From Hyphomicrobiales bacterium (lineage in GTDB: Bacteria; Pseudomonadota; Alphaproteobacteria; Rhizobiales; Rhizobiaceae), in the NCBI GenBank assembly GCA_900466575.1, contig UBMP01000022.1:1-64000 (forward strand): 64,000 nt of DNA, given 5' to 3'. The notes beneath the pieces are model-generated. The model was not told the DNA's origin and searched no databases. It worked only from the letters and a program-made list of their open reading frames with translations. A program made the position numbers and the translations under genes. Numbering within the stretch: the stretch's first letter is position 1; every line of letters begins with the position of its first letter. Shown here piece by piece: positions 44,252 through 63,829 of this stretch.

Positions 44252-45352
44252 TTAATACAGTGGATGAAACTTGATGCAGGTCGGCGTTCCTGTTTGAATG
44301 TATTTGCCGGTATCGATCAGCCTCCCGTCATTCTGATCTCGTTCGAATATATCAATTCTGTCTGAATCCTGGTTGGCGCAGAACAGATGTTTGCCAAAAG
44401 GGGTAATAGCGAGATTGCGTGGGGTCTTTCCGCCGCAAGGGATGTTTTCGACCAGAGACACATCTCCGCTTTCCTTTGAAATTGCATAGGTAGAGATACT
44501 GTCATGGCCGCGGTTCGAGCCGTAGAGAAAGCGTCCGTCGGGTGAAATCTGGATATCTGCACAGTGATTTTCTCGAAAGTTTGCGTCTGATAACGCAGCG
44601 ACAGAAGCTATGGGCGCAAGGCTGCCGCTCTCTTTATCAATCTCGAAGCTGGCGCAGGTCGAGTTCAGTTCGTTCATGACAAATAGAAAGCGTCCGCTTG
44701 GATGCAAAGCCATGTGGCGAGGACCGGCACCCGGCACGCATCTCGTGATCGAGCGCTGCACCAAGTCACGATCGCCGATGAGTTGATAGCATGTGAGGGT
44801 GTCACATCCCAAATCGGCGACCACAAAGTGATCGTCACCAATTTCTATTACGCTGTGCGCGTGGCTACGCTCCTGTCTGGTAAGATCGGGGCCAGATCCC
44901 ATCTGTCGAACCGAGGCGGTAGCTGGCTGCAACGCATAGTGTTTAGTGACCGGATATACAGCCAGTGACTGATCCGGTCCGCCGGTGCCGATGCCGTAAT
45001 TTACAACAAGCACATGACCACCGTCGCCTGAAACAATACTCTGTGCCGCAATGCTTCCCAGCGTGGATTGGGTGTTGCGATACTCGAGTTTCCCGCTCGC
45101 GCGGTCGAATGTGAAGGCCGTAATCAGACCCTCCCTCCATCCAAAGACCTCGGAGGTTACAAAAAGCGCCCGACCGTTTCCTTCGAGCGAAAGATAAGTC
45201 GGGTTCTCTATATCGCTATATTTTCCAAGTTCCCGAATTTCCAAAGTATCGCGGCTAACACTGAAGACGCTGAGGCCGGATCCATTTGCCGACGAGAAAT
45301 AGGGCGTGGGCCGGTTACAGGATCCCACGAAGAGCACGTAAGCGTCGTCCAT
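44252..45352 (-). CDS. Lactonase-family beta-propeller (6-phosphogluconolactonase type)
   Basis: A 366-residue seven-bladed propeller of the YbhE/Pgl family. Repeated blade motifs are visible: NPTYLSLEGNGRALFVTSEV, SHAHSVIEIGDDHFVVADLG, GPRHMALHPSGRFLFVMNEL, CADIQISPDGRFLYGSNRGH and TPRNLAITPFGKHLFCANQD. The conserved GPRH segment supports the lactonase subfamily. No signal peptide is seen. It is divergent from the MaoC/CoA-transferase/ABC operon and shares its promoter region, so it may hydrolyse the sugar lactone of the pathway encoded there. A second lactonase candidate of another fold lies at 53032. Confidence 0.83.
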   Translation of the reverse strand: MDDAYVLFVGSCNRPTPYFSSANGSGLSVFSVSRDTLEIRELGKYSDIENPTYLSLEGNGRALFVTSEVFGWREGLITAFTFDRASGKLEYRNTQSTLGSIAAQSIVSGDGGHVLVVNYGIGTGGPDQSLAVYPVTKHYALQPATASVRQMGSGPDLTRQERSHAHSVIEIGDDHFVVADLGCDTLTCYQLIGDRDLVQRSITRCVPGAGPRHMALHPSGRFLFVMNELNSTCASFEIDKESGSLAPIASVAALSDANFRENHCADIQISPDGRFLYGSNRGHDSISTYAISKESGDVSLVENIPCGGKTPRNLAITPFGKHLFCANQDSDRIDIFERDQNDGRLIDTGKYIQTGTPTCIKFHPLY

Positions 45353-45422
45353 GTCGACCTCCCAATCGAAACGTCCATGTACATCTCATCGCACAATCGA
45401 CGGCGCTTGCAAAGATAATCCA

Positions 45423-45445
45423 TATGTGAAAATGATATTCACATA
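45423..45445. promoter_or_regulatory. 23-bp operator palindrome between lactonase and MaoC genes
   Basis: TATGTGAA (45423-45430) and TTCACATA (45438-45445) are perfect inverted arms around a 7-base AT-rich centre. The site is 22 bases before the MaoC start and 70 bases from the divergent lactonase start, a good place for a repressor acting on both. The binding protein is not identifiable; the IclR gene at 53923 is one candidate. Confidence 0.65.
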
Positions 45446-45467
45446 AGAACAATGGGAGGAGGGCGCC

Positions 45468-46016
45468 GTGAAAACCGGGGCTACCGTTGGAACATCCACG
45501 ACCTATCCGTCCGACATGCCGGAAGCGCATGCAGCGCTGCCGGTGTGGAATGCCGAGAACTGGTTCTATGAGGACTGGCCGGTGGGTCAGAAGATCAGAT
45601 CGCTGCGCAGGACCATGGCGGAAGGGGACAGCCATCTCTTCAACACGCTTGTCACCGACATCCATCCCTATGTTCAGGACCAGATGTTCGCGGAGCGCGA
45701 AGGGATCTTCGGGCGGCGGCTGATAGCAGGGGCATTCGTATTCTCAGCCGGATTGGGGCTGGTCGCCACGAATTGCGTGAACGCCTTTTCCTACGGTTAC
45801 GACAGGCTTCGTTTCATAAAGCCGGTCTTTATCGGCGACACCATCTACGCAATCCGGACCAATCTCGAGAAACGGCCCCGCTATAAGGATCTGGGGCTTA
45901 TCAGGGCCAGCTACGAGGTCTTCAAGGGAGAGGGCGAGCTGGTGCTCTACTGCGAGCATCTCCAGACAGTGAAGTACAAGAATCCGGCGGATTTCGTCGG
46001 CCTGACAGAAAAGTAA
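45468..46016 (+). CDS. MaoC-fold (hot-dog) protein lacking the catalytic His
   Basis: A 182-residue hot-dog-fold protein of the MaoC dehydratase family, which normally hydrates enoyl-CoA esters. The core [20 protein letters not shown] is well conserved. The catalytic loop, usually D-x-N-P-x-H, reads TDIHPYVQD: the Asp is kept but the His is Val. It may be inactive, act as a structural partner, or use different chemistry. The start is GTG at 45468 with GGAGGAGG upstream. It is the first gene of the CoA-transferase/ABC operon, 6 bases before the CoA-transferase gene. A second MaoC gene with an intact motif is at 61762. Confidence 0.8.
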
Positions 46017-46022
46017 TCTGCA

Positions 46023-47183
46023 ATGACTGAGAAAAACGAACTTCCCTTGAGCGGCTTGGTCGTGGTCGACATGAGCCAGTTTCTCTCCGGCCCCTACTGT
46101 TCGCTGCGGCTGATGGATCTTGGCGCGCGGGTCATCAAGATCGAGCGTCCCGACGGCGGAGATCTTTCACGCCGCCTCTATCTCAGCGACACCGAGATCG
46201 GCGGCGATTCCACCATCTTTCATGCGATCAACCGTGGCAAGGAAAGCTTTGCCGTCGATTTGAAGAACGAGGACGATCTCAAGGCATTGCGTGCTTTGCT
46301 GCTGAAGGCCGACGTCCTCATTCAGAATTTCAGGCCTGGCGTGATCGAGCGGCTGGGCTTTCATTATGACGCGGTGAAGCAGATCAATCCGCGGCTCGTC
46401 TACGCGTCGATCAGTGGCTACGGCGAGGAAGGGCCATGGGTCAAGCGGCCGGGGCAGGATCTTCTTGCGCAATCGCGCTCCGGCGTCATGTGGCTGAACG
46501 GGGACGAGAACCAGGGGCCTGTGCCCTTCGGGCTTGCCATCGGCGACATGCTGGCAGGGGCGGCGGCATGCCAGGGCATTCTGGCAGCGCTGGTTCGCCG
46601 TGGCATCAGCGGCAAGGGCGGGCTCGTCGAGACAAGCCTCATGGAAGCGCTCATCGACTTCCAGTTCGAAGTGCTGACAACGCACTTGAACGACGGCCGA
46701 CGGCTGCCGAAGCGCGCGAGTTTCCGCAGCGCGCACGCTTATCTGTCGGCGCCCTACGGCGTCTATGCGGCAGCGGACGGCTATCTGGCGATTGCCATGA
46801 CGCCGATCCCCAAGCTTGCCGACCTCCTCGATATGCCGGAGCTCGATCCCTATCGTGACGATCCCTCCAGCTGGTTCATCGAGCGCGACCGGATCAAGGA
46901 GTTGATTGCCCGGCGTATTGCCATGAAGACGATCGACGAGTGGCTGGCGGTTCTCGATCCGGCCGACATCTGGTGCGCCAAGGTGCTGGACTGGCGCGAG
47001 ATGATGGACAGCGACGGCTTCAAGTCGTTGGACATGCTGCAGACTGTCGAGCGGGAGGACGATGTCTCCATCGTCACGACGCGCTCACCACTTCGCGTCG
47101 ATGGCTTGCGTGCGAAATTCGATCGCGCTGCGCCGAGGATCGGCGAGCATAGCGATGCCATTCGCAAGGAGTTCGGCCTGTGA
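46023..47183 (+). CDS. Class III (CaiB/BaiF) CoA-transferase
   Basis: A 386-residue family III CoA-transferase, which moves CoA from an acyl-CoA to an organic acid through an aspartyl mixed anhydride. The N-terminal DMSQFLSGPYCSLRLMDLGA and KIERPDGGD are typical, followed by FHAINRGKESFAVDLK, LIQNFRPGVIERLG and SGYGEEGPW. The active-site Asp is about residue 175 in GLAIGDMLAGA. It sits between a MaoC-fold protein and a cytoplasmic binding-protein-like protein whose start overlaps its stop. In this sugar-transport operon it implies that a sugar-derived acid is converted to a CoA ester, a step not part of known deoxysugar routes. Confidence 0.88.
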   Translation: MTEKNELPLSGLVVVDMSQFLSGPYCSLRLMDLGARVIKIERPDGGDLSRRLYLSDTEIGGDSTIFHAINRGKESFAVDLKNEDDLKALRALLLKADVLIQNFRPGVIERLGFHYDAVKQINPRLVYASISGYGEEGPWVKRPGQDLLAQSRSGVMWLNGDENQGPVPFGLAIGDMLAGAAACQGILAALVRRGISGKGGLVETSLMEALIDFQFEVLTTHLNDGRRLPKRASFRSAHAYLSAPYGVYAAADGYLAIAMTPIPKLADLLDMPELDPYRDDPSSWFIERDRIKELIARRIAMKTIDEWLAVLDPADIWCAKVLDWREMMDSDGFKSLDMLQTVEREDDVSIVTTRSPLRVDGLRAKFDRAAPRIGEHSDAIRKEFGL

Positions 47184-48310
47184 GTAAGGTGGTTCTGAAA
47201 GGCATGACCTGGAGCCATCCCCGTGGCTATGATCCGATGGTCGCATCATCGCGCCTCTTCAAAGATGAGACCGGCATCGAGGTTCAATGGGACAAGCGCT
47301 CGCTGCAGGATTTCGAGACATATCCGGTCGAGGAACTCGCCCGCAGCTACGATCTGATCGTCATCGATCATCCGCATGTCGGCCAGATAACCCGCGAAAA
47401 CTGCCTGCTTCCGCTGGATATCGCCGGACGCGAAAATGATTTGGCAGCGTTGAAAGCGGGAAGTGTAGGTGCGTCCTTCGAGAGCTATAAATTCGAAGGC
47501 AGGCATTGGGGCTTTCCGATCGACGCGGCCACGCAGGTCCAAGCCTATCGGCCGGACGCGCTTGCCAGGCCGGCCCGCACCTGGAGCGACGTTCTCAATC
47601 TCGCGCGCGAAGGTCGGGTACTCTTGCCGCTTCGGCCGCCCCACACGTTGATGGTGTTCTATACGCTTACCGCAAACCGCGGACACGCCTGCAGCGTCAA
47701 AGGCCCCGATCTCGTCAATCCGACTGCCGGCGAGCAAAGCATCGATCTGATGCGCGAGATTTCCGGGCTGATCGATCCCACCTGCTTCGACATGGACCCG
47801 ATCGCCGTGCTGGAGAGAATGGCACAGCCCGGAAGTCCCTTCGTCTGCTCCCCGCTGATCTATGGCTATGTCTCCTATGCGTTCCCAGGCGTCAGACCGC
47901 ATCTGGTCAAGTTCGCGGACATTCCGGAGGTCGGAAATCTGGGGCCGGTCGGCTCTGCGCTGGGCGGGACAGGCATCGCGGTCTCGGCTTTTTCAGCCCA
48001 CAGTCAAGAGGCTGTCGCATTCGCGTACCGGGTTGCCAGCGCCGACGTCCAGCGTGGCATATACGCGGCTTCGGGAGGGCAACCTGGCCATGCGGCAGCC
48101 TGGGAGGACGATGAGGTCAATGCGGCCGCCTCGGATTTCTACCGCGACACGCGAGCGACGTTAGAGGGCGCCTGGGTCCGGCCCCGCCATGACGGCTACA
48201 TGCGGTTCCAGCAGGAAGGATCGGACAGGCTGAACGAAGGGCTGAAACGCGGACATCGGTCGTCGGAGATCGTCGCGGACCTTAACCGGATGTTCGCATC
48301 GAGTTTTTGA
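47180..48310 (+). CDS. Substrate-binding-protein-like protein without signal peptide
   Basis: A 376-residue protein with the two-lobed family-1 solute-binding pattern: MTWSHPRGYDPMVASSRLF, IEVQWDKRSLQDFETYP, YDLIVIDHPHVGQI, WGFPIDAATQVQAYRPDAL and TWSDVLNLAREG. The C-terminal lobe follows (LGGTGIAVSAFS, EAVAFAYRVASADVQRGIY). No hydrophobic signal segment or lipobox exists at the N-terminus with either possible start (GTG 47180 or ATG 47204), so it should stay in the cytoplasm. GTG 47180 overlaps the CoA-transferase stop by 4 bases, indicating coupled translation. It may deliver or sense a substrate for the CoA-transferase. A separate exported binding protein follows at 48360. Confidence 0.75.
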   Translation: MSKVVLKGMTWSHPRGYDPMVASSRLFKDETGIEVQWDKRSLQDFETYPVEELARSYDLIVIDHPHVGQITRENCLLPLDIAGRENDLAALKAGSVGASFESYKFEGRHWGFPIDAATQVQAYRPDALARPARTWSDVLNLAREGRVLLPLRPPHTLMVFYTLTANRGHACSVKGPDLVNPTAGEQSIDLMREISGLIDPTCFDMDPIAVLERMAQPGSPFVCSPLIYGYVSYAFPGVRPHLVKFADIPEVGNLGPVGSALGGTGIAVSAFSAHSQEAVAFAYRVASADVQRGIYAASGGQPGHAAAWEDDEVNAAASDFYRDTRATLEGAWVRPRHDGYMRFQQEGSDRLNEGLKRGHRSSEIVADLNRMFASSF

Positions 48311-48359: not shown

Positions 48360-49550
48360 ATGAACAAGAGTCTCTGCATTTTGCTGGCAGGTGTGAGCCT
48401 GACGGCCGCCAGCCTGCCCGCTTTGGCGCAGGAAGGCGTTTCGACCGTCATCTCCGGCTTGCCGGACCTTCTCAAGGCGCAATATGACGGCGCGCCGCAG
48501 AAGATCCTGCCCTCGGCGCTGGGAAACTGGACGCCGCCCAAGAAGCCGTGGAAATGGTGCCATTCCGAATCCTATCAGGGCAATCCATGGCGCGTCACCG
48601 TGACCAAGGAACTCAAGCGTCTCGTCGACGGTCTGATCGCCAATGGTACCGTGTCCAGCTTCGAAGTGTCTGACTCCAACAACGACGTCAGCCAGCAGAT
48701 CAACCAGATCCGCGCCTTCATCGACAAGGGTTGCTCGATCATAACCTCGATCCCCGGTTCCGCAACGGCGCTCGACGATGCGATCGATACAGCCGCGAAG
48801 GCCAACATCCCCTTCGTAACGGCCGCCGGCTCGGTGACCAGCGCCAACGCGATCAACGTGGATTCGAACTATTCGCGATGGGGCTATGACATGATGACCG
48901 CCATCGACAAGACCCTTCCCAAGGGAGGCAACGTGCTGATGGTGGAAGGTATCGCCGGACATCCCATCGTGGCGCAGGAACGCCAGGGTGCGGACAAGGC
49001 GCTGGCCGAGGACAAGACGCTTAAGGTCGCCCGCTCGGTCAACGGCAACTGGACCGCCAATGTCACCAAGACGGTCGTTCTTCAGGCCATCGCGACCAAC
49101 CCTGCGCCGATCGATGCGGTCTGGACCACCGGCAGCGAAAGCCGCGTCGTGGCCGAAGCCTTCGCGCAGGCCGGCCGTCCGGCTCCCCTGATCACAGGCT
49201 CCATCACCGGCGATGCGCTGGGCTACTGGAAAGCCAATCCGGACAAGTATCGCTTCGAAGGCCATGCTTTGCTTCCGCACTGGACCGCGCAGACGCTGTT
49301 TCGCGTCGCCGTGCGGATACTGGATGGGCAGAAGCCGAAGCTGAACACGCTGATGATCCCGATACCGGCGGTGCACAATGCGGATTTGGCAAGCTGGTAC
49401 AAGCCCTGCATGACACCTGATGCCGTCTCGGTCTTCCCAATTCCGCCGAACGACCCGATGCCGGAGGATCTGTTGAACGCCTATTTCGACAATGCCAAGC
49501 CGACGCAGGGCTGGGACTATTCCAAGACTCCCGACGCCTGCGCCAAGTAG
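48360..49550 (+). CDS. Periplasmic sugar-binding protein (RbsB-like)
   Basis: A 396-residue binding protein of the ribose/galactose type (peripla_BP_4). Signal peptide: MNKSLCILLAGVSLTAASLP then ALAQ, with cleavage after ALA. Mature segments show TVTKELKRLVDGLIANGTVS-like first lobe, FIDKGCSIITSIPGSATALD, VTAAGSV and DAVWTTGSESRVVAEAFAQA. GGAGGAGG precedes the ATG. It serves the split ATPase and two permeases downstream. It is longer than RbsB (about 300) because of a C-terminal extension of roughly 60 residues (KPCMTPDAVSVFPIPPNDPM region). Confidence 0.88.
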   Translation: MNKSLCILLAGVSLTAASLPALAQEGVSTVISGLPDLLKAQYDGAPQKILPSALGNWTPPKKPWKWCHSESYQGNPWRVTVTKELKRLVDGLIANGTVSSFEVSDSNNDVSQQINQIRAFIDKGCSIITSIPGSATALDDAIDTAAKANIPFVTAAGSVTSANAINVDSNYSRWGYDMMTAIDKTLPKGGNVLMVEGIAGHPIVAQERQGADKALAEDKTLKVARSVNGNWTANVTKTVVLQAIATNPAPIDAVWTTGSESRVVAEAFAQAGRPAPLITGSITGDALGYWKANPDKYRFEGHALLPHWTAQTLFRVAVRILDGQKPKLNTLMIPIPAVHNADLASWYKPCMTPDAVSVFPIPPNDPMPEDLLNAYFDNAKPTQGWDYSKTPDACAK

Positions 49551-49587
49551 ACTGTGCGCCAGGCAACTTGGCTGACCGTAACCTGCC

Positions 49588-49613
49588 CGACTGCGGCATT
49601 TGCGCCGCAGTCG
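49588..49613 (+). terminator. 10-bp stem-loop with T-run after the binding-protein gene
   Basis: CGACTGCGGC (49588-49597) pairs exactly with GCCGCAGTCG (49604-49613) around a 6-base loop and is followed by CTTTT. It lies 38 bases after the binding-protein stop and just before the ATPase gene, fitting a partial terminator that lowers transporter relative to binding-protein expression. Confidence 0.75.
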
Positions 49614-49630
49614 CTTTTGGATCCAGATCG

Positions 49631-50368
49631 ATGCTTGCAATTGATGGAATATCGAAGCGCTACGGGGAGACTGTGGCGCTTTCGGACGCGACGATTACCT
49701 TCCGCGAAGGGACGATCCATACCGTGCTCGGCGAAAACGGTTCAGGCAAGAGTACGCTGGTCAAGATATTGTCCGGCATCGTTCAGCCGGACGAGGGGCG
49801 CATAAGCCTTGATGGAGCGGCCTTCCGGGAAAGGACGCCGGCCGGCTATCAGAGAGCCGGTCTCGCGACGGTTTTTCAGGAAATTCTGATTGCCCCTGAC
49901 CGGAGCGTCACCGACAATATTCTGCTGGGTCTCGATGGTCTTTTCAGCCGCGTGGTGCCGCGCGGAAGACGGAGGGAGACGGCGGCGGCGGCACTTCGGC
50001 GCTTTGCGGTCAGCGACATTCCGCTCGATGTCAGGGCCGGCAGCCTGCCGCTTGCCGCTCAGCAGCTTGTCGTGCTTGCGCGGGCGGTGGTGCGGCAACC
50101 GCGCGTCCTCATCCTCGATGAGGTGACGGGCGCGCTCGACTTTGCCGACCGCGAGTCGGTTTTCGGCCTGATGCGCGAACTGGCAAAAGCCGGCAGCCTG
50201 CTGATCTTCATTACGCACAGGATGGACGAGGTGAAGAGCCTGTCGGACCGCATTTCGATCCTGCGCGGCGGCAAGGTCATCAAGACCGAGGACGCCGGCG
50301 TGTCGACTTCGGAACAGCTTCTGGCCGCCATGGCGCCGCAGATGGCCGAGGAGCTGAGCCATGTCTGA
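49631..50368 (+). CDS. Sugar ABC transporter ATPase, N-terminal half (split RbsA/XylG type)
   Basis: A 245-residue ATPase equal to the first half of the usual roughly 500-residue RbsA/AraG protein. Walker A is [16 protein letters not shown] near residue 37, the signature is [16 protein letters not shown], and Walker [13 protein letters not shown] retains the catalytic Glu. The switch region is FITHRMDEV. The frame is open from 49568, but the ATG at 49631 ([12 protein letters not shown]) is the family start and follows the hairpin. Its stop overlaps the next start by 8 bases in another frame. The two genes together replace one fused ATPase. Confidence 0.88.
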
Positions 50369-51104
50369 GACACCGAGAATGATCATCGACGATCTTGCGC
50401 TGAAACCTGGTTCCAGCCCGTTCTCGCAAAAGCTGCAGCGGGGAGAGATTGTCGGTCTAGCGGGACTGGACGGCCACGGTCAGCAACGGTTCCTCGAAAC
50501 GCTGGCGGGGCTGGAGAAGCCACCGCGTGGAACGGTATCGATAGCAAGGAATATGGAATACGTTTTGTTGAAAGGATTTCGCCACGGTGTTGCCAACGGC
50601 ATTGCCTATCTGCCGCGCGACAGGCGGGCCACCGGCATCTTTCCCTCCATGTCGATACTCGATAACTTCGCCATCTCGACGGTATGGCGCGACACTTCGG
50701 GCGGCATCATCCGCACGGCACGGCGCGGCGCGCGTTTCGAACAATACCGGCAGCGGCTTGCCATCAAGGCGCCGGACCCGAAGGCGCCCATAACGACACT
50801 GTCGGGCGGCAACCAGCAAAAGGTCCTGCTCGCGCGGGCCCTGGCGCTTTCCCCCGAAATCCTCCTGCTCAACGATCCGACGCGCGGTGTCGATGTGGCG
50901 ACACGGCATGTACTTTACGACGTGTTCCGCGGGGTTGCCCGAGAGGGTATGACCCTTGTCATCCTGTCCAGCGAGATCGAGGAAATCCTGCTTCTCTGCC
51001 AAAGGGTTCTCGTCTTCCGAGAACATGAGTTGGCGGCAGAGTTGGCCGGCGACGAGATGAGCACGGAAGGAGTGATTTCGGCCATGTTCGGAAAGGCGGC
51101 GTGA
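50361..51104 (+). CDS. Sugar ABC transporter ATPase, C-terminal half (split, degenerate site)
   Basis: A 247-residue protein equal to the second half of RbsA/AraG. Walker A is the relaxed [10 protein letters not shown] usual for C-domains, the signature [17 protein letters not shown] is strong, and [17 protein letters not shown] matches the family. Walker B reads [12 protein letters not shown] where the common form is LILDEPTRGVD, so both the Asp and the catalytic Glu are changed and this half probably does not hydrolyse ATP. It starts inside the end of the preceding gene (8-base overlap), consistent with translational coupling of a 1:1 heterodimer. Confidence 0.88.
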
Positions 51105-54776: not shown

Positions 54777-54852
54777 TTGACGAAGCGCCGGGTTTGTCGT
54801 TTGTATATAAAAATAAAACTCATATTTGGGTAATTGGTGCCGGGAGGGCACC
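54777..54852 (+). promoter_or_regulatory. Candidate promoter and leader hairpin of the second sugar ABC operon
   Basis: TTGACG at 54777-54782 is a good -35 box, and AT-rich DNA (TATATAAAAATAAAA) follows at -10 spacing. A short leader hairpin (GGTGCC 54836-54841 with GGCACC 54847-54852) lies just before the AAGGGAGGAG ribosome binding site. IclR binding probably occurs here, but no clear dyad is seen. Confidence 0.45.
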
Positions 54853-54871
54853 GCTAAGGGAGGAGCAGACG

Positions 54872-56182: not shown

Positions 56183-56193
56183 CCTGCGCCATT

Positions 56194-56217
56194 CCCGCAC
56201 CCGGTGACGGGTGCGGG
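56194..56217 (+). terminator. 10-bp stem-loop after the binding-protein gene
   Basis: CCCGCACCCG (56194-56203) pairs exactly with CGGGTGCGGG (56208-56217) with the tetraloop GTGA. It begins 12 bases after the binding-protein stop. There is no T-run, so it is probably an mRNA-protecting or attenuating element ahead of the permease genes. Confidence 0.7.
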
Positions 56218-56341
56218 CCTCGAACCGAAATGAAACTGCCGAAGGCCGTCGCGGCGGTCCAGGCCACCGGCCGAACGCTGCGCGGGAACGGTCATCAGCA
56301 GCATTCCGGCCAGGCTGGAATGGGCTCGACAGGTACTGTCC

Positions 56342-57235
56342 ATGTTAAAGAAAATCTCTCCACCGACGCTTCTTCTTTTACCGGCAATCATCCTGCTGGT
56401 CGCGGTGGTGCTGTTTCCGCTGCTTCTGTCCCTTTATTCCAGCTTCACGCCTTTCCGGCTGACCCGGCCGAACACGCTCTTCGTCTTCATAGGCCTGCGC
56501 AACTACATGCGCATCCTCACCGACCCGGTCTTCCTTGCCGCCTTTGTCCGCACGGTCGTGCTTCTGACGATAGCTCTGAACCTCGAGATGCTTCTTGGGC
56601 TGGGGCTGGCGATCCTTGTGAACAAGGCCACGCACGGCAAGCGCATCCTACGCACCATGATGCTTTTTCCCATGATGTTCTCACCTGTGTTGGTCGGCTT
56701 CCAGTTCAAGTTCATGTTCAACGACAATGTGGGGATCGTGAACAATGCGCTGCAGTCGCTTGGCATCACTGAGACGGCGATCCCCTGGCTGATCGACGGC
56801 AATCTGGCACTGTTTTCCATCATCGTTGCAGAAGTCTGGTCCTCCACCTCGGTCTTTGCCATCCTCATTCTGGCAGGCCTCTATGCCATGCCGCAGGAGC
56901 CGGTGGAGGCCGCGAAGGTCGATGGCTGCACGCCGTGGCAGACCTTCCGCTATGTCACGTGGCCATTCCTCATGCCCTTTGCCTTCATCGCCATGACCAT
57001 CCGCTCGCTTGACGTCGCTCGCGCGTACGACATCGTCCAGATCATGACGGACGGCGGCCCGGCGCGCCGCACGGAGCTGATCTGGACCCTCGTCGGGCGC
57101 ACCGCCTATGCGGATGCACAGATGGGTCTGGCAAATGCGATGGGCTACGTTTCGATCCTGCTTTCCATCGTCTTTACCGTCTATTTCTTCCGCAAGCTGG
57201 CAGCGGCGCGGACCCAGATCGGAGCGGAGTGGTAA
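56342..57235 (+). CDS. Carbohydrate ABC transporter permease (MalF type)
   Basis: A 297-residue membrane protein with six helices; the first is LLLLPAIILLVAVVLFPLLL. The EAA loop reads VEAAKVDGCTPWQTFRYVTW near residue 200, and MTDGGPARRTELIWTLVGRT follows. The Shine-Dalgarno is poor at the ATG at 56342, and the 159-base gap from the binding-protein gene carries the stem-loop. Confidence 0.88.
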   Translation: MLKKISPPTLLLLPAIILLVAVVLFPLLLSLYSSFTPFRLTRPNTLFVFIGLRNYMRILTDPVFLAAFVRTVVLLTIALNLEMLLGLGLAILVNKATHGKRILRTMMLFPMMFSPVLVGFQFKFMFNDNVGIVNNALQSLGITETAIPWLIDGNLALFSIIVAEVWSSTSVFAILILAGLYAMPQEPVEAAKVDGCTPWQTFRYVTWPFLMPFAFIAMTIRSLDVARAYDIVQIMTDGGPARRTELIWTLVGRTAYADAQMGLANAMGYVSILLSIVFTVYFFRKLAAARTQIGAEW

Positions 57236-57237
57236 AC

Positions 57238-58104
57238 ATGGACCGCAATTCCCAACATCGTATCCGCCGCCGGGTTGAAAAGGTCGCCTATCTCATCGGC
57301 CTCTTCATCGCCATGATGATCATCTGCCTGCCCGGTGTCTGGATCGTGCTCAGCTCGCTGCGCCCGACGGTGGAGATCATGGCGAAGCCGCCCGTGTGGA
57401 TACCGCACTCTCTGTCACTCGATGCCTATCGCTCGATGTTCGGCGGGCTCGGTCAGGGCGGCATCCCGGTGCTGGACTATTTCCGCAATTCGTTGATCAT
57501 CTCGATCACCTCGACGGTCATCGCGCTGGTGATCGGCATGTCAGGCGGCTATGCCTTCGCCCGTTTCCGCTTTCCCGGCAAAAATACGGTGTTCCTCGGT
57601 CTGATGCTGTCGCGATCGGTGCCCGGCGTGGCGCTGTCGCTGCCGCTATTCATGGTCTATTCGCGCATCGGCATCATCGACACTCATTTCGGCTTGATTG
57701 TCACCTATGTCGCCTTGAACGTCCCCTTCACCATTTGGCTGATCGACGGCTTCTTCCGGCAGGTGCCGAAGGACCTCGCGGAAGCCGCGCAGATCGACGG
57801 CTGCACGCGCTGGCAGGCGTTCTGGCAGGTGGAATTTCCGCTGGCCGGACCCGGCATCGCTTCGGCCGGAATATTTGCCTTCCTCACCTGCTGGAACGAA
57901 TATGCGCTCGCCTCTCAGCTGACGCGATCGGTCTCCTCTAAGACGCTGCCGGTGGGTCTGCTCGACTACACGTCGGAATTCACGATCGACTGGCGCGGCA
58001 TGTGCGCGCTCGCCGTCATCATGATCATCCCGGCACTCGCCCTCACATTCATCATTCAGAAGCATCTGGTGTCAGGTCTGACATTCGGTGCGGTCAAAGG
58101 TTGA
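57238..58104 (+). CDS. Carbohydrate ABC transporter permease (MalG type)
   Basis: A 288-residue permease. The first helix is AYLIGLFIAMMIICLPGVWI; the EAA loop is LAEAAQIDGCTRWQAFWQVE near residue 180; the C-terminus VSGLTFGAVKG is the MalG-type ending. The ATG at 57238 is 2 bases after the preceding stop with GGAG upstream; a GTG at 57229 is in frame. Confidence 0.88.
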   Translation: MDRNSQHRIRRRVEKVAYLIGLFIAMMIICLPGVWIVLSSLRPTVEIMAKPPVWIPHSLSLDAYRSMFGGLGQGGIPVLDYFRNSLIISITSTVIALVIGMSGGYAFARFRFPGKNTVFLGLMLSRSVPGVALSLPLFMVYSRIGIIDTHFGLIVTYVALNVPFTIWLIDGFFRQVPKDLAEAAQIDGCTRWQAFWQVEFPLAGPGIASAGIFAFLTCWNEYALASQLTRSVSSKTLPVGLLDYTSEFTIDWRGMCALAVIMIIPALALTFIIQKHLVSGLTFGAVKG

Positions 58105-58108
58105 CAGC

Positions 58109-59206
58109 ATGGCCCAGGTCTCCCTCAAGAAACTCGTCAAGCGCTATGGAGCGCTGGAAGTCGTCCACGGCATCGATCTCGAGGTAAAGGATCGCGAGTT
58201 CGTCGCCCTGGTCGGTCCATCCGGTTGTGGGAAATCGACAACGCTGCGGATGATCGCCGGGCTGGAGCCCATCTCTGGCGGCTCGCTTGAAATCGGCAAT
58301 ACCGTTGTCAACGACCTGCCGCCGCGGGACCGGAACATCTCGATGGTGTTCCAGTCCTACGCTCTCTATCCACATATGACGGTGCGCGAGAACATGGGCT
58401 TTTCGCTGAAGATCGGCAAGCGGCCGCAGGCCGAAATCGATCGCCGCGTCAACGAGGCCTCCGCCATTCTCGGGCTCGAGGCGTTGATGGAGCGTCGGCC
58501 GGCGCATCTGTCTGGCGGTCAGCGCCAGCGCGTGGCGATGGGCCGTGCGATCGTGCGTCAGCCGGAAGTCTTCCTGTTCGACGAACCGCTTTCCAACCTC
58601 GATGCCAAGCTGCGCACCCAGATGCGGACTGAAATCAAGAAGCTGCATGCCAAGGTGCCGACGACGGTCATCTACGTCACGCACGACCAGATCGAGGCCA
58701 TGACACTGGCCGACCGCATCGTCATCATGCGGGATGGCCATATCGAGCAGGTCGGCACGCCCGACGAGGTGTTCAAGAGGCCGGCGACCCGGTTCGTCGC
58801 CGGTTTCATCGGCTCGCCGCCGATGAATATTGAGGAGGCGACAGTAAAGGCAGGAACTCTGGTCTTTGCCAGTGGCGACAGTCTTCCGGTTCCCGAACAA
58901 TTCCGCGCCCGAGTGAAGGATGGCGACAGGGTCGCTTTCGGGCTTCGTCCCGACGACATCTTCCCAACCGGGCATGGGCTTTCGGCAGGCGACGCGAGCG
59001 CCGTGTACGAAATTGCCTTGCCGGTCTCGATAACCGAGCCGCTTGGAAACGAGACCCTCGTCTTCATCGAATTCGCCGGCCGGGAATGGGTGTCGCGCAT
59101 GCTCAATCCGCGCGGCCTCAAGGCCGGGGAACAACTGGCGATGAGCTTCGACCTCTCGCAGGCGCATCTCTTTTCTGTCCAGACCGGCAAGAGCCTGACA
59201 ATCTGA
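58109..59206 (+). CDS. Sugar ABC transporter ATPase (MsmK/UgpC type)
   Basis: A 365-residue CUT1 ATPase. Walker [20 protein letters not shown] is near residue 38, signature [16 protein letters not shown] near 135, Walker [16 protein letters not shown] and YVTHDQIEAMTLADRI. The C-terminal TOBE domain has FGLRPDDIFP near 280. The start at 58109 (MAQVSLKKLVKRYG) follows the permease stop by 4 bases. It completes the importer that precedes the deoxysugar enzymes. Confidence 0.92.
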   Translation: MAQVSLKKLVKRYGALEVVHGIDLEVKDREFVALVGPSGCGKSTTLRMIAGLEPISGGSLEIGNTVVNDLPPRDRNISMVFQSYALYPHMTVRENMGFSLKIGKRPQAEIDRRVNEASAILGLEALMERRPAHLSGGQRQRVAMGRAIVRQPEVFLFDEPLSNLDAKLRTQMRTEIKKLHAKVPTTVIYVTHDQIEAMTLADRIVIMRDGHIEQVGTPDEVFKRPATRFVAGFIGSPPMNIEEATVKAGTLVFASGDSLPVPEQFRARVKDGDRVAFGLRPDDIFPTGHGLSAGDASAVYEIALPVSITEPLGNETLVFIEFAGREWVSRMLNPRGLKAGEQLAMSFDLSQAHLFSVQTGKSLTI

Positions 59207-59218: not shown

Positions 59219-60331
59219 ATGGCCCGCATCGAACATATTGAACTGAGAATGGTCGACCTGCCGCCGAAAGTGAAGCGGACGGATGCGATCCAGAGCTTCG
59301 TTTCCCAGGAAACGCCGATCGTGACGATTACGGATTCCGACGGAGCGGTCGGCACGGGTTACAGCTATACGATCGGCACCGGCGGCTCGTCCGTCATGCG
59401 GCTGCTGTCCGACCATCTGGTGCCCCTTCTGATCGGCGAGGATGCAGACTGCATTGAGGCAATCTGGCACAAACTGGAATTCGCCACGCACGCCACGACG
59501 ATCGGCGCGATCTCCGCGTTGGCTCTTGCGGCCGTTGATACGGCTCTCTGGGATCTGCGCGCCCGGAAGCAGATGCTGCCGCTCTGGAAGCTTGCGGGGG
59601 GCGCCAAGGAAAGCTGCCCGCTTTACACGACCGAAGGTGGTTGGCTGCATATCGAGAAGGAGGCGCTGGTCGAGGATGCTCTGCAGGCGAAGGCCAAGGG
59701 TTTTTCCGGCTCCAAGGTGAAGATCGGGAAGCCGCATGGCTCGGAAGATTATGCTCGTTTGTCGGCCATGCGGCTTGCCCTTGGCGACGGCTACGAGATC
59801 ATGACTGATTGCAATCAGGGCTTCACTGTCGATGAGGCTATCCGGCGGGCAGCGCGACTGCAGGAACTCGACCTTGCGTGGATCGAAGAGCCTCTGCCTG
59901 CCGACGATCTCGACGGGCATATCCGCCTGACACGATCGACACCGACGCCGATCGCGGTGGGTGAATCCATGTACTCGGTCCGCCATTTCCGCGAATACAT
60001 GCAGAAGGGAGCCTGTTCTATCGTTCAGGTTGATGTCGCCCGCATCGGCGGGATCACGCCGTGGCTCAAGGTGGCGCATGCGGCCGAGGCCTTCGACATT
60101 CCCGTCTGCCCGCACTTCCTGATGGAGCTGCATGTCAGCCTGACCTGCGCCGTTTCTAACGGCAGATATGTCGAATATATTCCCCAGCTCGACGACCTGA
60201 CCACCAAAGGCATGGAAATCCGCGATGGCCGGGCGATTGCTCCATGCGAGCCTGGCATCGGCATAGCCTGGGATTGGGAGGCGGTGAAGGCCCGGTCGAT
60301 TCCAGAATTCACCACCGAAGTGCGCGGCTGA
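59219..60331 (+). CDS. Enolase-superfamily sugar-acid dehydratase (mandelate racemase subgroup)
   Basis: A 370-residue enzyme. An N-terminal capping domain (1-120) precedes the barrel. Catalytic residues are visible: KVK (Lys166, Lys168), Asp197 in IMTDCNQ, Glu223/224 in WIEEPLP, Glu249 in AVGES, and His299 in CPHFLMELH. This is the mandelate-racemase-type set used by L-fuconate, L-rhamnonate and related aldonate dehydratases. AGGAGG precedes the ATG, 12 bases after the ATPase stop. Neighbouring mutarotase, SDR and FAH-type genes point to a 6-deoxyaldonate giving a 2-keto-3-deoxy acid. It is shorter than classical L-fuconate dehydratase (about 440), so the exact substrate is open. Confidence 0.85.
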   Translation: MARIEHIELRMVDLPPKVKRTDAIQSFVSQETPIVTITDSDGAVGTGYSYTIGTGGSSVMRLLSDHLVPLLIGEDADCIEAIWHKLEFATHATTIGAISALALAAVDTALWDLRARKQMLPLWKLAGGAKESCPLYTTEGGWLHIEKEALVEDALQAKAKGFSGSKVKIGKPHGSEDYARLSAMRLALGDGYEIMTDCNQGFTVDEAIRRAARLQELDLAWIEEPLPADDLDGHIRLTRSTPTPIAVGESMYSVRHFREYMQKGACSIVQVDVARIGGITPWLKVAHAAEAFDIPVCPHFLMELHVSLTCAVSNGRYVEYIPQLDDLTTKGMEIRDGRAIAPCEPGIGIAWDWEAVKARSIPEFTTEVRG

Positions 60332-60342
60332 GGAGGCTAGCT

Positions 60343-60672
60343 ATGCAGCGGATGGGTATGGTCATCGGCCTCGAACCGTCGAAGGTCGCGGAGTACAAGG
60401 CGTTACATGCGGCGGTCTGGCCGGAAGTGCTGGCGCTGATCAAGGCCTGCAATATCACCAACTATACGATCTTTCTGAGGGAGCCGGAAAACCTGCTCTT
60501 CGGCACCTGGGACTATGTCGGGACGGACTTCAAGGCCGATATGGCGAAGATGGCGGCCGACCCGAAGAACCAGGAGTGGTGGTCGGTCTGCATGCCCTGC
60601 CAGAAGCCGCTTGCGACACGCAGGGAAGGCGAGTGGTGGGCGATGATGGAGGAGGTGTTTCATGCGGATTGA
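60343..60672 (+). CDS. L-rhamnose/L-fucose-type mutarotase (RhaM family)
   Basis: A 109-residue dimeric ferredoxin-like protein. ALHAAVWPEVLALIKACNIT, NYTIFLREPENLLFGTWDYV and NQEWWSVCMPCQKPL align with the RhaM family pattern (H-x-x-W-P-E, Y-x-I-x-L, W-W). These enzymes interconvert the alpha and beta anomers of rhamnose and similar sugars in the cytoplasm. The ATG at 60343 is preceded by GAGGAGG; the open frame extends to 60244. It lies between the dehydratase and Gfo/Idh genes. Its presence shows that the pathway begins with a free pyranose sugar, most likely a 6-deoxyhexose. Confidence 0.88.
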   Translation: MQRMGMVIGLEPSKVAEYKALHAAVWPEVLALIKACNITNYTIFLREPENLLFGTWDYVGTDFKADMAKMAADPKNQEWWSVCMPCQKPLATRREGEWWAMMEEVFHAD

Positions 60673-60684: not shown

Positions 60685-61758
60685 ATGACGTTTGACTCCG
60701 GATCATTGCGCCAGTGGTGGCCAAAGCCTGTTCATCCCCGGCCGATTGTCATTTTCGGCGCGGGAAGCATCGTCGGCGACGCGCATCTTCCGGCCTACAG
60801 GAAGGCCGGCTTTCTCGTTGCCGGAATATTCGATCCGGATGGTGCAAAGGCGAGGGAACTGGCGGAGCGCTGGGATACGCGCGCCTTCGCCTCGCAGGCG
60901 GAAGCGCTTGCAGTGCCTGATGCGATTTTCGATCTAGCGACGCCGCCCGCTGCCCATGCCAGCCTCCTCAACGCTTTGCCGGCAGATTCTTTCGCGCTGA
61001 TACAGAAGCCGATGGGAAGCGATCTGGCACAGGCAAGTGCCATCCTGCAGATCTGCCGGAAAAAGAATATCCGAGCGGCCGTCAATTTCCAGCTCCGCTT
61101 CGCACCGATGATGCTGGCATTAGCAGACGCGATTGAAGGAGGTCACCTCGGTGAAATCGTGGACTTCGACGCCTGGCTGGCGCTCGCGACGCCATGGGGG
61201 ATGTGGCCGTTTCTAAAGGGCCTGCCACGAATCGAGATTGCCATGCACTCGATCCACTATCTTGATTTCATTCGCGCTCTGCTGGGCAATCCTCTTGGCA
61301 TACACGCAAAAACCATCGGCCATCCGAACCACGACGTGGCGCAGACGCGGACGGCCGCCATCCTTGACTATGGTGACAAGATCCGCTGCGCGCTGTCGGT
61401 CAATCACGATCATGATTTTGGCAGAAAGTTTCAAGCTTGCGAATTCCGCATCTGTGGGACGCGCGGCGCGGCCTATCTGAAGCTGGGCGTCAATCTCGAC
61501 TATCCCACCGGCGAGCCGGACGAGCTCTGGATCAACCCCTCAGGAACCGAGGATTGGGTACAGGTCCCGCTTGAAGGCGCATGGTTTCCCGACGCCTTTG
61601 TCAATCGAATGGCCAGCCTCCAGCGCTTTGCCTGCGGCGAGGAAGAGATGCTCGTCGGCTCCGTCGAGGATGCCTGGCAGACCATGGCTCTTGTTGAAGC
61701 CGCCTATCAATCCAGTGCGGCGCCGGCAACGCCGATAGCACCACTTCCGGAGGCCTGA
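60685..61758 (+). CDS. Gfo/Idh/MocA-family oxidoreductase, candidate sugar 1-dehydrogenase
   Basis: A 357-residue NAD(P)-dependent oxidoreductase. The Rossmann motif IVIFGAGSIVGDAHLPAYRK is near residue 22; the cofactor-side EKP motif appears as IQKPMGSD (Glu to Gln, Lys kept) near 107; the substrate domain has MHSIHYLDFIRALLG with the catalytic-type His near 190. No other sugar dehydrogenase that could oxidise C1 is in the operon, so this is the best candidate for converting the aldose to its lactone. Other Gfo/Idh chemistry cannot be excluded. The ATG at 60685 has GAAGGG upstream. Confidence 0.82.
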   Translation: MTFDSGSLRQWWPKPVHPRPIVIFGAGSIVGDAHLPAYRKAGFLVAGIFDPDGAKARELAERWDTRAFASQAEALAVPDAIFDLATPPAAHASLLNALPADSFALIQKPMGSDLAQASAILQICRKKNIRAAVNFQLRFAPMMLALADAIEGGHLGEIVDFDAWLALATPWGMWPFLKGLPRIEIAMHSIHYLDFIRALLGNPLGIHAKTIGHPNHDVAQTRTAAILDYGDKIRCALSVNHDHDFGRKFQACEFRICGTRGAAYLKLGVNLDYPTGEPDELWINPSGTEDWVQVPLEGAWFPDAFVNRMASLQRFACGEEEMLVGSVEDAWQTMALVEAAYQSSAAPATPIAPLPEA

Positions 61759-61761: not shown

Positions 61762-62217
61762 ATGTCGGAACAGACAATCCATTTCGAAGATTACCAGCTC
61801 GGCCATGTCAGGATGACGTCAGGCCGGACGATCACGGAGACTGACTTCGTCGTCCATGCGGGCCATACCGGTGATTTCTTTCCACATCACATGGATGCCG
61901 AATTTGCAAAGACGCTGCCGGGCGGGCAGCGTATCGCCCATGGCACGATGATCTTCGCCATCGGCGTCGGGCTGACAGCATCACTGATCAATCCCGTGGC
62001 TTTCTCCTACGGCTATGACAGGCTGCGATTTGTCCGCCCCGTGCATATTGGCGACACGATCCGCACCCGCGTGACGATCTCCGCCAAGGAGGACGATCCC
62101 AAACGTCCGCAGTCCGGCCGTGTCGTAGAGCGTTGCGAAGTGTTGAACCAGCGCGACGAGGTGGTTCTGGCCGCCGATCATATCCTGCTCGTCGAGCGCA
62201 ATCAGATAAAGGGATGA
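61762..62217 (+). CDS. MaoC-family dehydratase with intact catalytic motif
   Basis: A 151-residue hot-dog-fold (R)-specific hydratase-like protein. The loop [20 protein letters not shown] keeps the catalytic Asp and His of the D-x-N-P-x-H motif (Asn is Phe). The core [20 protein letters not shown] is very like the degenerate copy at 45468, showing common origin. Enzymes of this kind act on enoyl-CoA thioesters. It starts 3 bases after the Gfo/Idh stop and is 4 bases before the SDR gene. Its presence in a sugar operon, with a CoA-transferase in the neighbouring operon, suggests a CoA-ester step. Confidence 0.86.
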
Positions 62218-62221
62218 TGAG

Positions 62222-62956
62222 ATGAGCAATTCACTTGCCGGCAGGAAAGTTCTGGTCACCGCAGCCGCGCAGGGCATCGGCCTTGCGTCGGCGCTGGCTT
62301 TCGCGGAGGCAGGCGCGGATGTAGTGGCGACCGATATCAACAACGAAGCGCTGGCGGCGATAGGCAGTCGGGCGGGCATCACCACGAAATTGCTGAATGT
62401 TCTCGATGAAGCTGCGGTCAAGGCGCTCGTCGGGGAAATTGGACGTGTGGATGTCTTGTTCAATTGCGCCGGTGTCGTTCATGCCGGCTCGATCCTCGAG
62501 ATGAAGGATGCTGATCTGGACTTTGCTTTCGATCTTAACGTCAAGGCAATGATCCGGACGATCAGGGCCGTTTTGCCCGGTATGCTGGAGCGCAAGGATG
62601 GCGCAATCATCAACATGGCGTCGGTCGCCTCCAGCATCAAGGGTGTGCCCAATCGCTTTGCCTACGGCACCACAAAGGCTGCCGTCATTGGCCTGACCAA
62701 GTCTATCGCGGCAGACTATGTGACTCAGGGAATTCGCTGTAACGCGATCTGCCCGGGCACCGTCGAAAGCCCATCGCTTCAGGAACGGATGAGAGCCCAA
62801 GGCGACTACGATGCCGCAAGGGCTTCCTTCATCGCACGCCAGCCTATGGGCCGTCTCGGGAGCCCAGAGGAGATAGCGGAACTGGCCGTCTACCTCGCTG
62901 GCGCGACCTACACGTCGGGCCAGGCCTATGCCATCGACGGCGGCTGGACGATCTGA
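62222..62956 (+). CDS. SDR dehydrogenase, likely 2-keto-3-deoxy-L-fuconate dehydrogenase type
   Basis: A 244-residue classical SDR. Cofactor loop VTAAAQGIGLASALAFAEAG, Asp at ATDIN (NAD preference), NCAGVVHAGS, catalytic Ser in NMASVAS, YGTTK (YxxxK) near residue 150, and the C-terminal GQAYAIDGGWTI. The AAAQGIG and short length resemble 2-keto-3-deoxy-L-fuconate 4-dehydrogenases and the related BDH2-like group. It would oxidise the 2-keto-3-deoxyaldonate to the 2,4-diketo acid used by the next enzyme. The ATG at 62222 overlaps with ATGATG context right after the MaoC stop. Confidence 0.85.
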   Translation: MSNSLAGRKVLVTAAAQGIGLASALAFAEAGADVVATDINNEALAAIGSRAGITTKLLNVLDEAAVKALVGEIGRVDVLFNCAGVVHAGSILEMKDADLDFAFDLNVKAMIRTIRAVLPGMLERKDGAIINMASVASSIKGVPNRFAYGTTKAAVIGLTKSIAADYVTQGIRCNAICPGTVESPSLQERMRAQGDYDAARASFIARQPMGRLGSPEEIAELAVYLAGATYTSGQAYAIDGGWTI

Positions 62957-62983
62957 AACAACACGGCATGGAGTATAAGTAAC

Positions 62984-63829
62984 ATGAGATTTGTACGTTA
63001 TGGCGAAGCTGGCCAAGAGAAGCCAGGATTGCTTGATGCCAACGATCGCCTGCGCGACCTCTCGGCGCATATCACAGACCTTTCGGGTCCAGCACTTGCG
63101 CCTGAAAGCCTGAGCAAGTTGGCGGCACTGGATCCCGCAAACCTTCCAACGGTTGAGGGGAAGCCCCGCCTTGGTCCCTGCGTGGCGGGAATTGGCAAAT
63201 TCATCTGCATTGGACTGAACTATTCGGATCATGCTGCCGAGACTGGCGCTACCGTGCCATCCGAACCGATCATCTTTATGAAGGCATCGTCAGCCATCAC
63301 CGGCCCTAATGACAACGTTACTATCCCACGTGGTTCCGAGAAGACCGATTGGGAGGTAGAGTTGGCCGTCGTTATCGGAAAGACCGCCAAATACGTGTCT
63401 GAGGCTGAAGCGCTTGATTATGTTGCGGGCTATTGCGTAACCAACGATGTCTCCGAAAGAGCCTTTCAAACCGAGCGATCCGGTCAGTGGACGAAGGGCA
63501 AGTCCTGCGACACATTCGGCCCTATCGGTCCGTGGCTTGTGAGCAAAGATGAAGTCCCGGATCCCCAAAACCTTGGAATGTGGCTTAAGGTGAACGGCGA
63601 GACGATGCAGAACGGCTCGTCGAAGACAATGGTCTATGGAGTCGCTTTTCTTGTTTCCTATCTCAGCCAATTCATGTCGTTGCATCCGGGAGACGTGATC
63701 TCGACCGGGACGCCGCCGGGCGTCGGAATGGGGCAGAAGCCTCCGCGTTACCTCAAGGCCGGGGACATCGTGGAGCTCGGGATCGAGAAGCTCGGAAGCC
63801 AGAGGCAAACCTTCGTAACAGATCACTAG
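62984..63829 (+). CDS. Fumarylacetoacetate-hydrolase family, 2,4-diketo-3-deoxyaldonate hydrolase type
   Basis: A 281-residue metal-dependent C-C hydrolase. The core has FICIGLNYSDHAAETGATVP, IFMKASSAITGPNDNVTIP, the metal ligands in DWEVELAVVIG (Glu-x-Glu), VTNDVSERAFQ (Asp) and the substrate segment WTKGKSCDTFGPIGPWLV. The C-terminal half has GDVISTGTPPGVGMGQKPP. This closely follows the L-2,4-diketo-3-deoxyrhamnonate/fuconate hydrolase subgroup, which yields pyruvate and L-lactate. It is the last gene of the operon, 27 bases after the SDR. Confidence 0.88.
   Translation: MRFVRYGEAGQEKPGLLDANDRLRDLSAHITDLSGPALAPESLSKLAALDPANLPTVEGKPRLGPCVAGIGKFICIGLNYSDHAAETGATVPSEPIIFMKASSAITGPNDNVTIPRGSEKTDWEVELAVVIGKTAKYVSEAEALDYVAGYCVTNDVSERAFQTERSGQWTKGKSCDTFGPIGPWLVSKDEVPDPQNLGMWLKVNGETMQNGSSKTMVYGVAFLVSYLSQFMSLHPGDVISTGTPPGVGMGQKPPRYLKAGDIVELGIEKLGSQRQTFVTDH

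Follow-up and report, generated by a model that had tools for sequence, protein, structure and literature searches.

Near the right-hand end of a 64,000-nucleotide stretch from a Hyphomicrobiales bacterium (bases 1–64000 of contig C44, UBMP01000022.1, in a genome of 5.14 Mb; hereafter the window), genes for coenzyme A (CoA) chemistry lie within a locus for sugar catabolism, which raises the question of what they do there. The right half of the gene block is a locus for the non-phosphorylating degradation of L-fucose (route 3) and as such is largely known. Set among its genes are a class III (CaiB-type) CoA-transferase, two MaoC proteins (MaoC-A and MaoC-B) and a protein resembling sugar-binding proteins, which we call SBPc. 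All genes that an earlier note on this DNA had named were present as full open reading frames (ORFs) at the places it gave and matched their families, including two importers of different families, CUT1 and CUT2, the latter consisting of a binding protein, an ATPase split into two genes and two permeases. Judged from sequence, the CoA genes are not chance neighbours of the sugar genes. We tentatively propose, with slightly less than even confidence, that the locus is of the non-phosphorylating L-fucose type and carries a co-regulated CoA module that dehydrates a sugar acid as its CoA ester.

The earlier note had read the region as a near-complete non-phosphorylative route; the mutarotase and the short-chain dehydrogenase/reductase (SDR) fit this reading, but the route is less clearly complete at the dehydratase step, where the window holds a FucC remnant and an enolase-type protein of another subgroup. 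The mutarotase appears to be a FucM, scoring 161.5 bits against the L-fucose mutarotase 7byu versus at most 34.3 bits against rhamnose mutarotases. The best match of the SDR in the Protein Data Bank (PDB) is the L-2-keto-3-deoxyfuconate (L-KDF) 4-dehydrogenase FucF (8xwk, 304.5 bits, identified as such through passages of PMC11199699), which points to the same activity. The FAA hydrolase has the LRA6-type 8gsr as its best PDB match (340.8 bits) and scores 429.3 bits in NCBIfam against a cut-off of 500. The sole NCBIfam model matched by the amidohydrolase is L-fucono-1,5-lactonase, at 102.6 bits, far below the cut-off of 400, and the Gfo/Idh oxidoreductase, our FucA candidate, has only a distant best relative in the PDB (49.6 bits). 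The enolase-type protein is nearest to L-talarate/galactarate dehydratase (290.6 bits, cut-off 500), reaches 245.3 bits against 3,6-anhydro-L-galactonate cycloisomerase, and scores low against L-fuconate (126.2 bits) and L-rhamnonate dehydratase (111.3 bits). The FucC remnant matches four relatives at E values of 5e-10 to 9e-13; no FucD match was found at E 1e-100 in the window's genome (G000), and an intact L-fuconate dehydratase adjoins or lies near the hydrolase in Sinorhizobium medicae and other relatives. Transposon fitness data are reported to have led to the listing of the CUT1 operon of S. meliloti as an L-fucose importer. Passages of three papers held no gene-level link to the locus.

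The association of the CoA genes with the sugar genes was assessed in the loci of the best 80 of at least 539 SBPc relatives, all at least 61% identical, in stretches of at most 21 kb that end at 10 kb or earlier and therefore undercount downstream genes. CaiB (at least 65% identity) was found in 79 of the 80 loci and in each of these lay on the same strand; the remaining locus, L075, has two CaiB genes at 61% and 54%. IclR was present in 69 loci, MaoC-A in 66 and the CUT1 binding protein in 58; Gfo, MaoC-B and RhaM each occurred in 45 and the enolase-type gene in 44, while the beta-propeller lactonase was labelled in 31 and the CUT2 importer in 26. Since the commonest family of unlabelled ORFs occurred in 11 of the 80 loci, the conserved block has about the bounds that the earlier note had drawn. 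Rhodobacterales, Faunimonas, Martelella and Thalassospira have the same genes in a different arrangement; in Faunimonas and Martelella, mutarotase, Gfo, CaiB, SBPc and MaoC-B are consecutive, with one opposite-strand gene between mutarotase and Gfo in Martelella. Seven loci with full flanks have the CoA genes apart from the sugar genes (by more than ~10 kb), and in all six of these genomes that were examined Gfo lies elsewhere, each time beside MaoC-B and a mutarotase.

Presence and absence across 101 genomes of the family tell a similar story. SBPc and Gfo were both present in 20 and both absent from 78, with SBPc alone in 2 and Gfo alone in 1; for SBPc and MaoC-B the corresponding counts were 21, 79, 1 and 0. 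FucD is less tied to the CoA module than either, occurring with SBPc in 17 genomes and without it in 19, and missing from 5 genomes with SBPc. As these genomes are related and not independent draws, the small P values of co-occurrence are descriptive only. The thresholds were chosen after the lists had been seen: rows of SBPc below 50% identity (nine), of Gfo at 46–53% (four) and of MaoC-B at 48–54% or as 3′ fragments (four) were omitted before counting, and a partial enolase row (G732) was counted as present. Two genomes (G670 and G720) keep FucD and the hydrolase, have neither Gfo nor SBPc and retain MaoC-B as a 3′ fragment, which looks like joint loss. The comparison of the combined gene set, which the earlier note had suggested as a check, finds the CoA and deoxysugar genes co-occurring, whether linked, rearranged or unlinked.

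A shared promoter element points the same way. A palindrome with the consensus CATATGTGAAAATAnTATTCACAAA lies upstream of MaoC-A in 57 of 65 loci, and a matrix was trained on loci with the core CATATGTGA, the window being outside the training set. Across the 64 kb of the window its top positions are 45421 (42.0), 54804 (14.5), 21080 (13.9) and 21038 (4.2), and, overlapping alternatives aside, the next place scores below zero. The 95th percentile of two-base shuffles was exceeded upstream of the CUT1 binding protein in all of 57 loci; among other genes this was so for 16% of 58 amidohydrolase, 16% of 45 mutarotase, 4% of 45 Gfo and 4% of 26 CUT2 binding-protein genes and for 0% of 27 SDR genes. 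In leave-one-out scoring of sites other than those in the MaoC-A/CaiB promoter, the IclR/CUT1 intergenic region ranked first in 50 of 62 loci, second in 7, third in 4 and eighth in 1. In the rest of the sequence (1.37 Mb), six positions (five places) reached at least 12, all directly upstream of genes of the same system (amidohydrolase, CaiB/SBPc and Gfo); 11 positions reached 10 and 23 reached 8. One operator-like motif is thus predicted before both the CoA and the CUT1 operon, and the IclR-type protein is the natural candidate for its regulator. The earlier note had held that two operons answering to unrelated substrates would speak against a joint system; the sequence evidence points the opposite way, and co-occurrence, rearrangement and the operator-like site together place the CoA genes in the same functional and, by prediction, regulatory unit as the deoxysugar genes. 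In S. medicae (L008, 31847–35426), an operator match scoring 32.8 precedes a TRAP importer and, after it, MaoC-A, far from CaiB and SBPc.

The window also contains a GH78 alpha-L-rhamnosidase operon (14556–22149) that includes a CUT1 importer and has its own LacI gene in divergent orientation; its promoter includes the motif match at 21080. A link between this operon and the system was considered and set aside: the site (13.9) is not conserved, with sites in the retrieved stretches of all five relatives of the operon scoring at most 1.7, and a different motif is seen in several promoters of these relatives. The genome also encodes a RhaD-type enzyme (1079.7 bits, cut-off 567.75), and because of this enzyme and the unconserved site rhamnose is not counted as the substrate.

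D175 of CaiB, which we take to be the catalytic aspartate of class III CoA-transferases, is invariant in 98 rows and in an alignment of 8. MaoC (R)-hydratases have an Asp-His catalytic dyad, and MaoC-B possesses it, with D38 and H43 invariant in 60 rows. In MaoC-A, D64 and V69 are invariant in 69 rows, so that valine stands where the second catalytic His is expected and the dyad is missing, as would be the case in a degenerate partner subunit. Several loci (L133–L136, L159, L160 and L075) have two CaiB genes to one SBPc, as if for a heteromeric transferase. On pSymB of S. meliloti 1021 (L009, 9301–10457) the CaiB homologue is in two pieces in different frames; the S. medicae copy is unbroken.

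SBPc bears out the earlier note's description of a cytoplasmic protein resembling binding proteins. It has no hydrophobic leader, with a best 12-residue mean hydropathy of 0.58 versus 2.36 and 2.34 for the window's two periplasmic binding proteins, and a leader is absent in 27 of 27 rows (N-terminal hydropathy at most 1.43, measured from the matched start). Its AlphaFold2 model has a mean pLDDT of 91.3, and the top Foldseek matches are CUT1 sugar-binding proteins at a TM-score of ~0.8. In the window its start overlaps the end of CaiB by 4 bases, and 31 residues are invariant across 13 diverse rows. Operons of the Bacteroidota Rufibacter and Persicobacter combine SBPc with Gfo, two CaiB, a RhaT symporter, a MaoC 64–67% identical to MaoC-B and another protein of the binding-protein kind, which has no leader in the Persicobacter annotation and whose start in Rufibacter is uncertain. 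Neither 19 kb stretch yielded homologues of the ABC permeases or ATPases of the window. A role for SBPc as a third importer protein is disfavoured on both counts: because it is leaderless and no ABC permease lies near it in the Bacteroidota operons, it most likely belongs to the CoA module as a cytoplasmic protein. Where SBPc occurs without CaiB (L096, L097, L098 and L101), an enolase or UxuA-type protein is labelled nearby in four of four loci; the label in L097 is a 25% match only, and two of the four contigs end near, so that CaiB may lie beyond.

Related modules with a crotonase instead of MaoC indicate the position of the CoA genes in a pathway. The full sister set, comprising Gfo, an isomerase-like barrel, a DUF4432 epimerase, an SDR, CaiB, SBPc, an enoyl-CoA hydratase and an FAA-type protein, is found in L099, L100 and L142, and without the FAA protein in L104; the sister FAA-type protein scores 411.6 bits against 9kkt and 65.3 bits against 2-keto-3-deoxy-D-arabinonate dehydratase. 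In Shinella HZN7, an SDR, an SMP-30 lactonase, SBPc, CaiB and an enoyl-CoA hydratase accompany a CUT1 importer, with no acid-sugar dehydratase among the annotated genes shown. Judging by these neighbours, the CoA module stands between acid-making and 2-keto-3-deoxy-acid genes. On a plasmid of Methylobacterium nodulans (L105), MaoC, CaiB, SBPc and an AMP-binding protein lie near PdxA and a four-carbon acid sugar kinase, a context in which the module may serve other sugar acids.

The most informative loci have importers of acids. Skermanella has the order DctM, DctP, MaoC-B, CaiB, operator site, SBPc, CaiB and SDR, the last being 72.5% identical to the window's L-KDF-dehydrogenase-like SDR; its genome has no Gfo match at E 1e-60, and neither a mutarotase nor a lactonase was labelled in 21 kb. 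On contig C10 of genome G571, a TRAP importer lies beside an FAA-type protein, SBPc, a crotonase, CaiB and MaoC, and the genome has no Gfo of the window's family. Because these TRAP-linked loci are without a window-type Gfo, and because the SDR lies directly downstream in Skermanella, the CoA genes most likely act on a sugar acid rather than on the sugar, with a product that would enter at the SDR step. The earlier note's suggestion that an acid is converted to a CoA ester and joins the main route is borne out in part: the two TRAP-linked loci indicate an acid substrate, and the ester reaction itself we infer.

Gene content, linkage, the shared operator-like site and the leaderless SBPc, all read from the sequences, suggest the following scheme. 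The sugar would be imported and mutarotated, the Gfo/Idh protein would oxidise C1, and a lactonase would yield the aldonic acid, which could then be taken either by the enolase-type dehydratase or by the CoA module. In the latter, CaiB would load CoA onto the acid, and MaoC-B, perhaps with MaoC-A as partner subunit, would take water from C2–C3; the enol would rearrange to the 2-keto-3-deoxy acyl-CoA, and CaiB would hand the CoA to the next acid. The SDR and the FAA hydrolase would then convert the 2-keto-3-deoxy acid to pyruvate and lactate. SBPc would work alongside CaiB in the cytoplasm, as a binding partner or an unrecognised enzyme subunit. In this scheme we infer the whole of the CoA chemistry, what SBPc does, and which regulator, acid and sugar are involved. 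A precedent exists in carnitine metabolism, where, according to passages of PMC2131755, CaiB and CaiD dehydrate carnitine as its CoA ester with recycling of CoA; this shows that a beta-hydroxy acid is within reach of a pair of this kind.

Several observations weigh against this scheme. The enolase-type protein, and often FucD as well, is already present in the same loci, so that the module is not needed merely as a dehydratase, and in Ponticoccus it lies beside UxaA-type proteins. A canonical dehydratase (an enolase or UxuA) is labelled at some point along the stretch in 6 of 17 sister loci with CaiB and SBPc (L104, L136, L137, L138, L139 and L140). None was seen in the other 11 (L099, L100, L103, L105, L132, L135, L141, L142, L159, L160 and L163), but these absences are weak, as the query set would have labelled IlvD/EDD and UxaA types in unannotated stretches only where the ORF also went through a Pfam search, and the gene tables of plasmids have gaps. 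The TRAP argument comes from two lineages, and contig C4 of G571 holds a Gfo-bearing sister module. An obligatory role of SBPc as a subunit is contradicted by a Martelella sister cluster (CaiB, crotonase, SDR, epimerase and FAA protein, without the Gfo and barrel of the sister set) that has no SBPc of its own in a 29 kb stretch, where the only SBPc belongs to another cluster. No precedent for MaoC acting on a sugar-acyl-CoA and no paper for six aldonyl-CoA names was found among the papers listed in searches of the open-licence literature. A simpler version, in which the CoA module is a plain replacement for FucD, was not supported, as 17 of 22 genomes with SBPc (at least 50% identity) also have FucD and 5 do not. 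None of the 22 is without both FucD and the enolase-type gene (5 are without each), an outcome that independent loss would give with a hypergeometric probability of ~0.23 and that therefore carries no weight here.

Of the alternatives, the one that survives best, though we regard it as rather unlikely, is that the module serves a second, modified or epimeric 6-deoxy sugar (e.g. O-methylated or 6-deoxy-talose-like) whose acid would be unusable by the enolase-type dehydratase and that would join at the 2-keto-3-deoxy acid. In its favour, system-1 (non-sister) loci hold one or two canonical dehydratases besides the module, some loci (26 of 80) have a second importer, and the two Bacteroidota operons keep the module with no FAA hydrolase listed near. 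The mutarotase and SDR are nevertheless of the L-fucose type, and the sole link to another substrate was the unconserved site of the rhamnosidase promoter. The second methylated, acylated or branched sugar imagined in the earlier note is possible, but no modified-sugar gene stood out in the 80 loci, where the unlabelled families, the commonest in 11, have no further annotation.

We consider it improbable that the module degrades an acid (an aglycone or acyl group) freed from an imported glycoside or ester and is co-regulated since both halves arrive together. CaiB with MaoC or a crotonase does resemble ordinary organic-acid catabolism, two esterase genes lie near the module in Rufibacter, and G454 has a GH2-type gene. 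Yet the gene lists of the annotated stretches L099, L100, L104, L159, L160 and L163 include neither a thiolase nor an acyl-CoA dehydrogenase (the thiolase listed in Roseibium L106 belongs to an adjacent operon of opposite orientation), the SDR comes immediately next in Skermanella, and the sister modules are accompanied by genes for a sugar mutarotase, dehydrogenase or lactonase, often together with FAA-type 2-keto-3-deoxy-acid enzymes. Improbable to a slightly greater degree is a reversal of the order of steps, with the CoA ester formed after dehydration and MaoC hydrating an unsaturated acid that stems from the enolase-type protein or from elimination in an oxidised sugar. MaoC proteins are hydratases by family and the enolase-type protein is near a cycloisomerase, but its gene has no match (E 1e-90) in 5 of the 22 SBPc genomes, and is therefore not obligatory upstream, and it was not seen in the Thalassospira stretch. 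That the CoA genes are passengers, with a role of their own and no substrate shared with the sugar genes, as their distance from the sugar genes in the seven full-flank loci might suggest, is very improbable in view of co-occurrence, apparent co-loss, rearranged linkage and the shared operator-like site.

Dehydration of a sugar acid as its CoA ester therefore remains our preferred, if tentative, reading, and the small, definite set of genes and substrates makes the idea of a CoA branch directly testable. With more doubt, we entertain the broader possibility of a further class of acid-sugar dehydratase, in which CaiB with MaoC or a crotonase, usually with SBPc, would eliminate water from a CoA ester and recycle the CoA, in organisms from rhizobia to Streptomyces and Bacteroidota. 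The elimination of another leaving group at C3 (e.g. methanol) from a modified sugar would fall under the same doubtful reading. Sugar-acid dehydration is known from a small number of metal or iron-sulphur enzyme families, whose substrate is the free acid; if the proposal is true, thioester activation would add a new way of carrying out this central step and would account for the recurrent module of CaiB, SBPc and MaoC or crotonase. The SBPc-bearing module recurs in sugar loci of several phyla under uninformative labels such as "extracellular solute-binding protein".

The features of the locus are collected in the table below. The true start of the CUT1 binding protein lies at ~54872 (a leader-like start); this protein has no Pfam match at E 0.001 and was placed by its neighbours and a weak NCBIfam match. 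The reading of the mutarotase starts at ~60334. The CUT2 ATPase, usually one protein of ~500 residues, is encoded by two overlapping genes (49568–51104), a two-ORF form also present in related loci that carry the CUT2 importer. To the left of the block and outside the conserved set lies a gene for a large protein resembling, by eye, a hybrid histidine kinase (41345–43885).

Features of the L-fucose-type locus and its CoA module in the window
Feature	Position	Strand	Basis or remark
7-bladed beta-propeller lactonase	44252–45352	-	Pfam PF10282, 303 bits; divergent from CoA operon
Palindromic operator-like site, between lactonase and MaoC-A	45421–45445	+	score 42.0
MaoC-A, hot-dog protein	45468–46016	+	Pfam 43.2 bits; D64...V69
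Class III (CaiB-type) CoA-transferase	46023–47183	+	Pfam CoA_transf_3, 335.4 bits; D175
SBPc, leaderless sugar-binding-protein-like protein	47180–48310	+	AlphaFold2, Foldseek, hydropathy
CUT2 importer	48360–53028	+	family matches
Amidohydrolase, candidate L-fuconolactonase	53032–53919	-	Pfam 177.6 bits
IclR-type regulator, candidate for shared operator	53923–54708	-	Pfam
Second operator-like site, IclR/CUT1 intergenic	54804–54828	-	score 14.5
CUT1 importer: binding protein, two permeases, UgpC-type ATPase	54794–59206	+	family matches
Enolase-superfamily acid-sugar dehydratase candidate	59219–60331	+	not of the L-fuconate dehydratase subgroup
L-fucose mutarotase-like protein	60334–60672	+	7byu, 161.5 bits
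Gfo/Idh oxidoreductase, candidate aldose dehydrogenase	60685–61758	+	Pfam; co-occurrence with SBPc
MaoC-B, hydratase-type	61762–62217	+	Asp-His pair D38, H43
SDR close to L-2-keto-3-deoxyfuconate 4-dehydrogenase	62222–62956	+	8xwk, 304.5 bits
FAA hydrolase close to L-2,4-diketo-3-deoxyrhamnonate hydrolase	62984–63829	+	8gsr, 340.8 bits
L-fuconate dehydratase gene remnant, last ~52 codons, two frames	63846–64000	+	

Route 3 of L-fucose degradation and every single family of the locus are known; the combined locus and a sugar-catabolic module of CaiB, SBPc and MaoC were not found among the papers listed in searches of the open-licence literature. With route 3 as given in passages of PMC11199699 (FucM, FucA, FucB, FucC, FucF and FucG) the window shares the families of the mutarotase, amidohydrolase, SDR and FAA hydrolase. 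It differs in its FucC remnant, in the proposed Gfo/Idh dehydrogenase and in the added CaiB, SBPc and two MaoC; the passages on route 3 in that paper name no Gfo/Idh dehydrogenase, CaiB, SBPc or MaoC. CUT1 binding proteins (LpqY, SmoF and others) have a fold like that of SBPc, whereas SBPc is leaderless and stands beside CaiB in nearly all loci seen. The carnitine pair CaiB–CaiD, in the passages of PMC2131755, unites a class III CoA-transferase and a hydratase on a beta-hydroxy acid, as proposed here. CaiD, however, is a crotonase, a type found here only in the sister modules and replaced by MaoC in the window; the window's CaiB scores far below the L-carnitine CoA-transferase cut-off (82.9 versus 413 bits), and those passages give SBPc no named counterpart. 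The main text of PMC6336799, on acid-sugar dehydratases, has no words beginning "CoA" or "MaoC". The known enzymes of this kind (enolase type, IlvD/EDD and UxaA-type COG2721, as described in parts of that paper) carry out the same net step, from aldonate to 2-keto-3-deoxy aldonate, but they act on the free acid, whereas the proposed module would act on its CoA ester.

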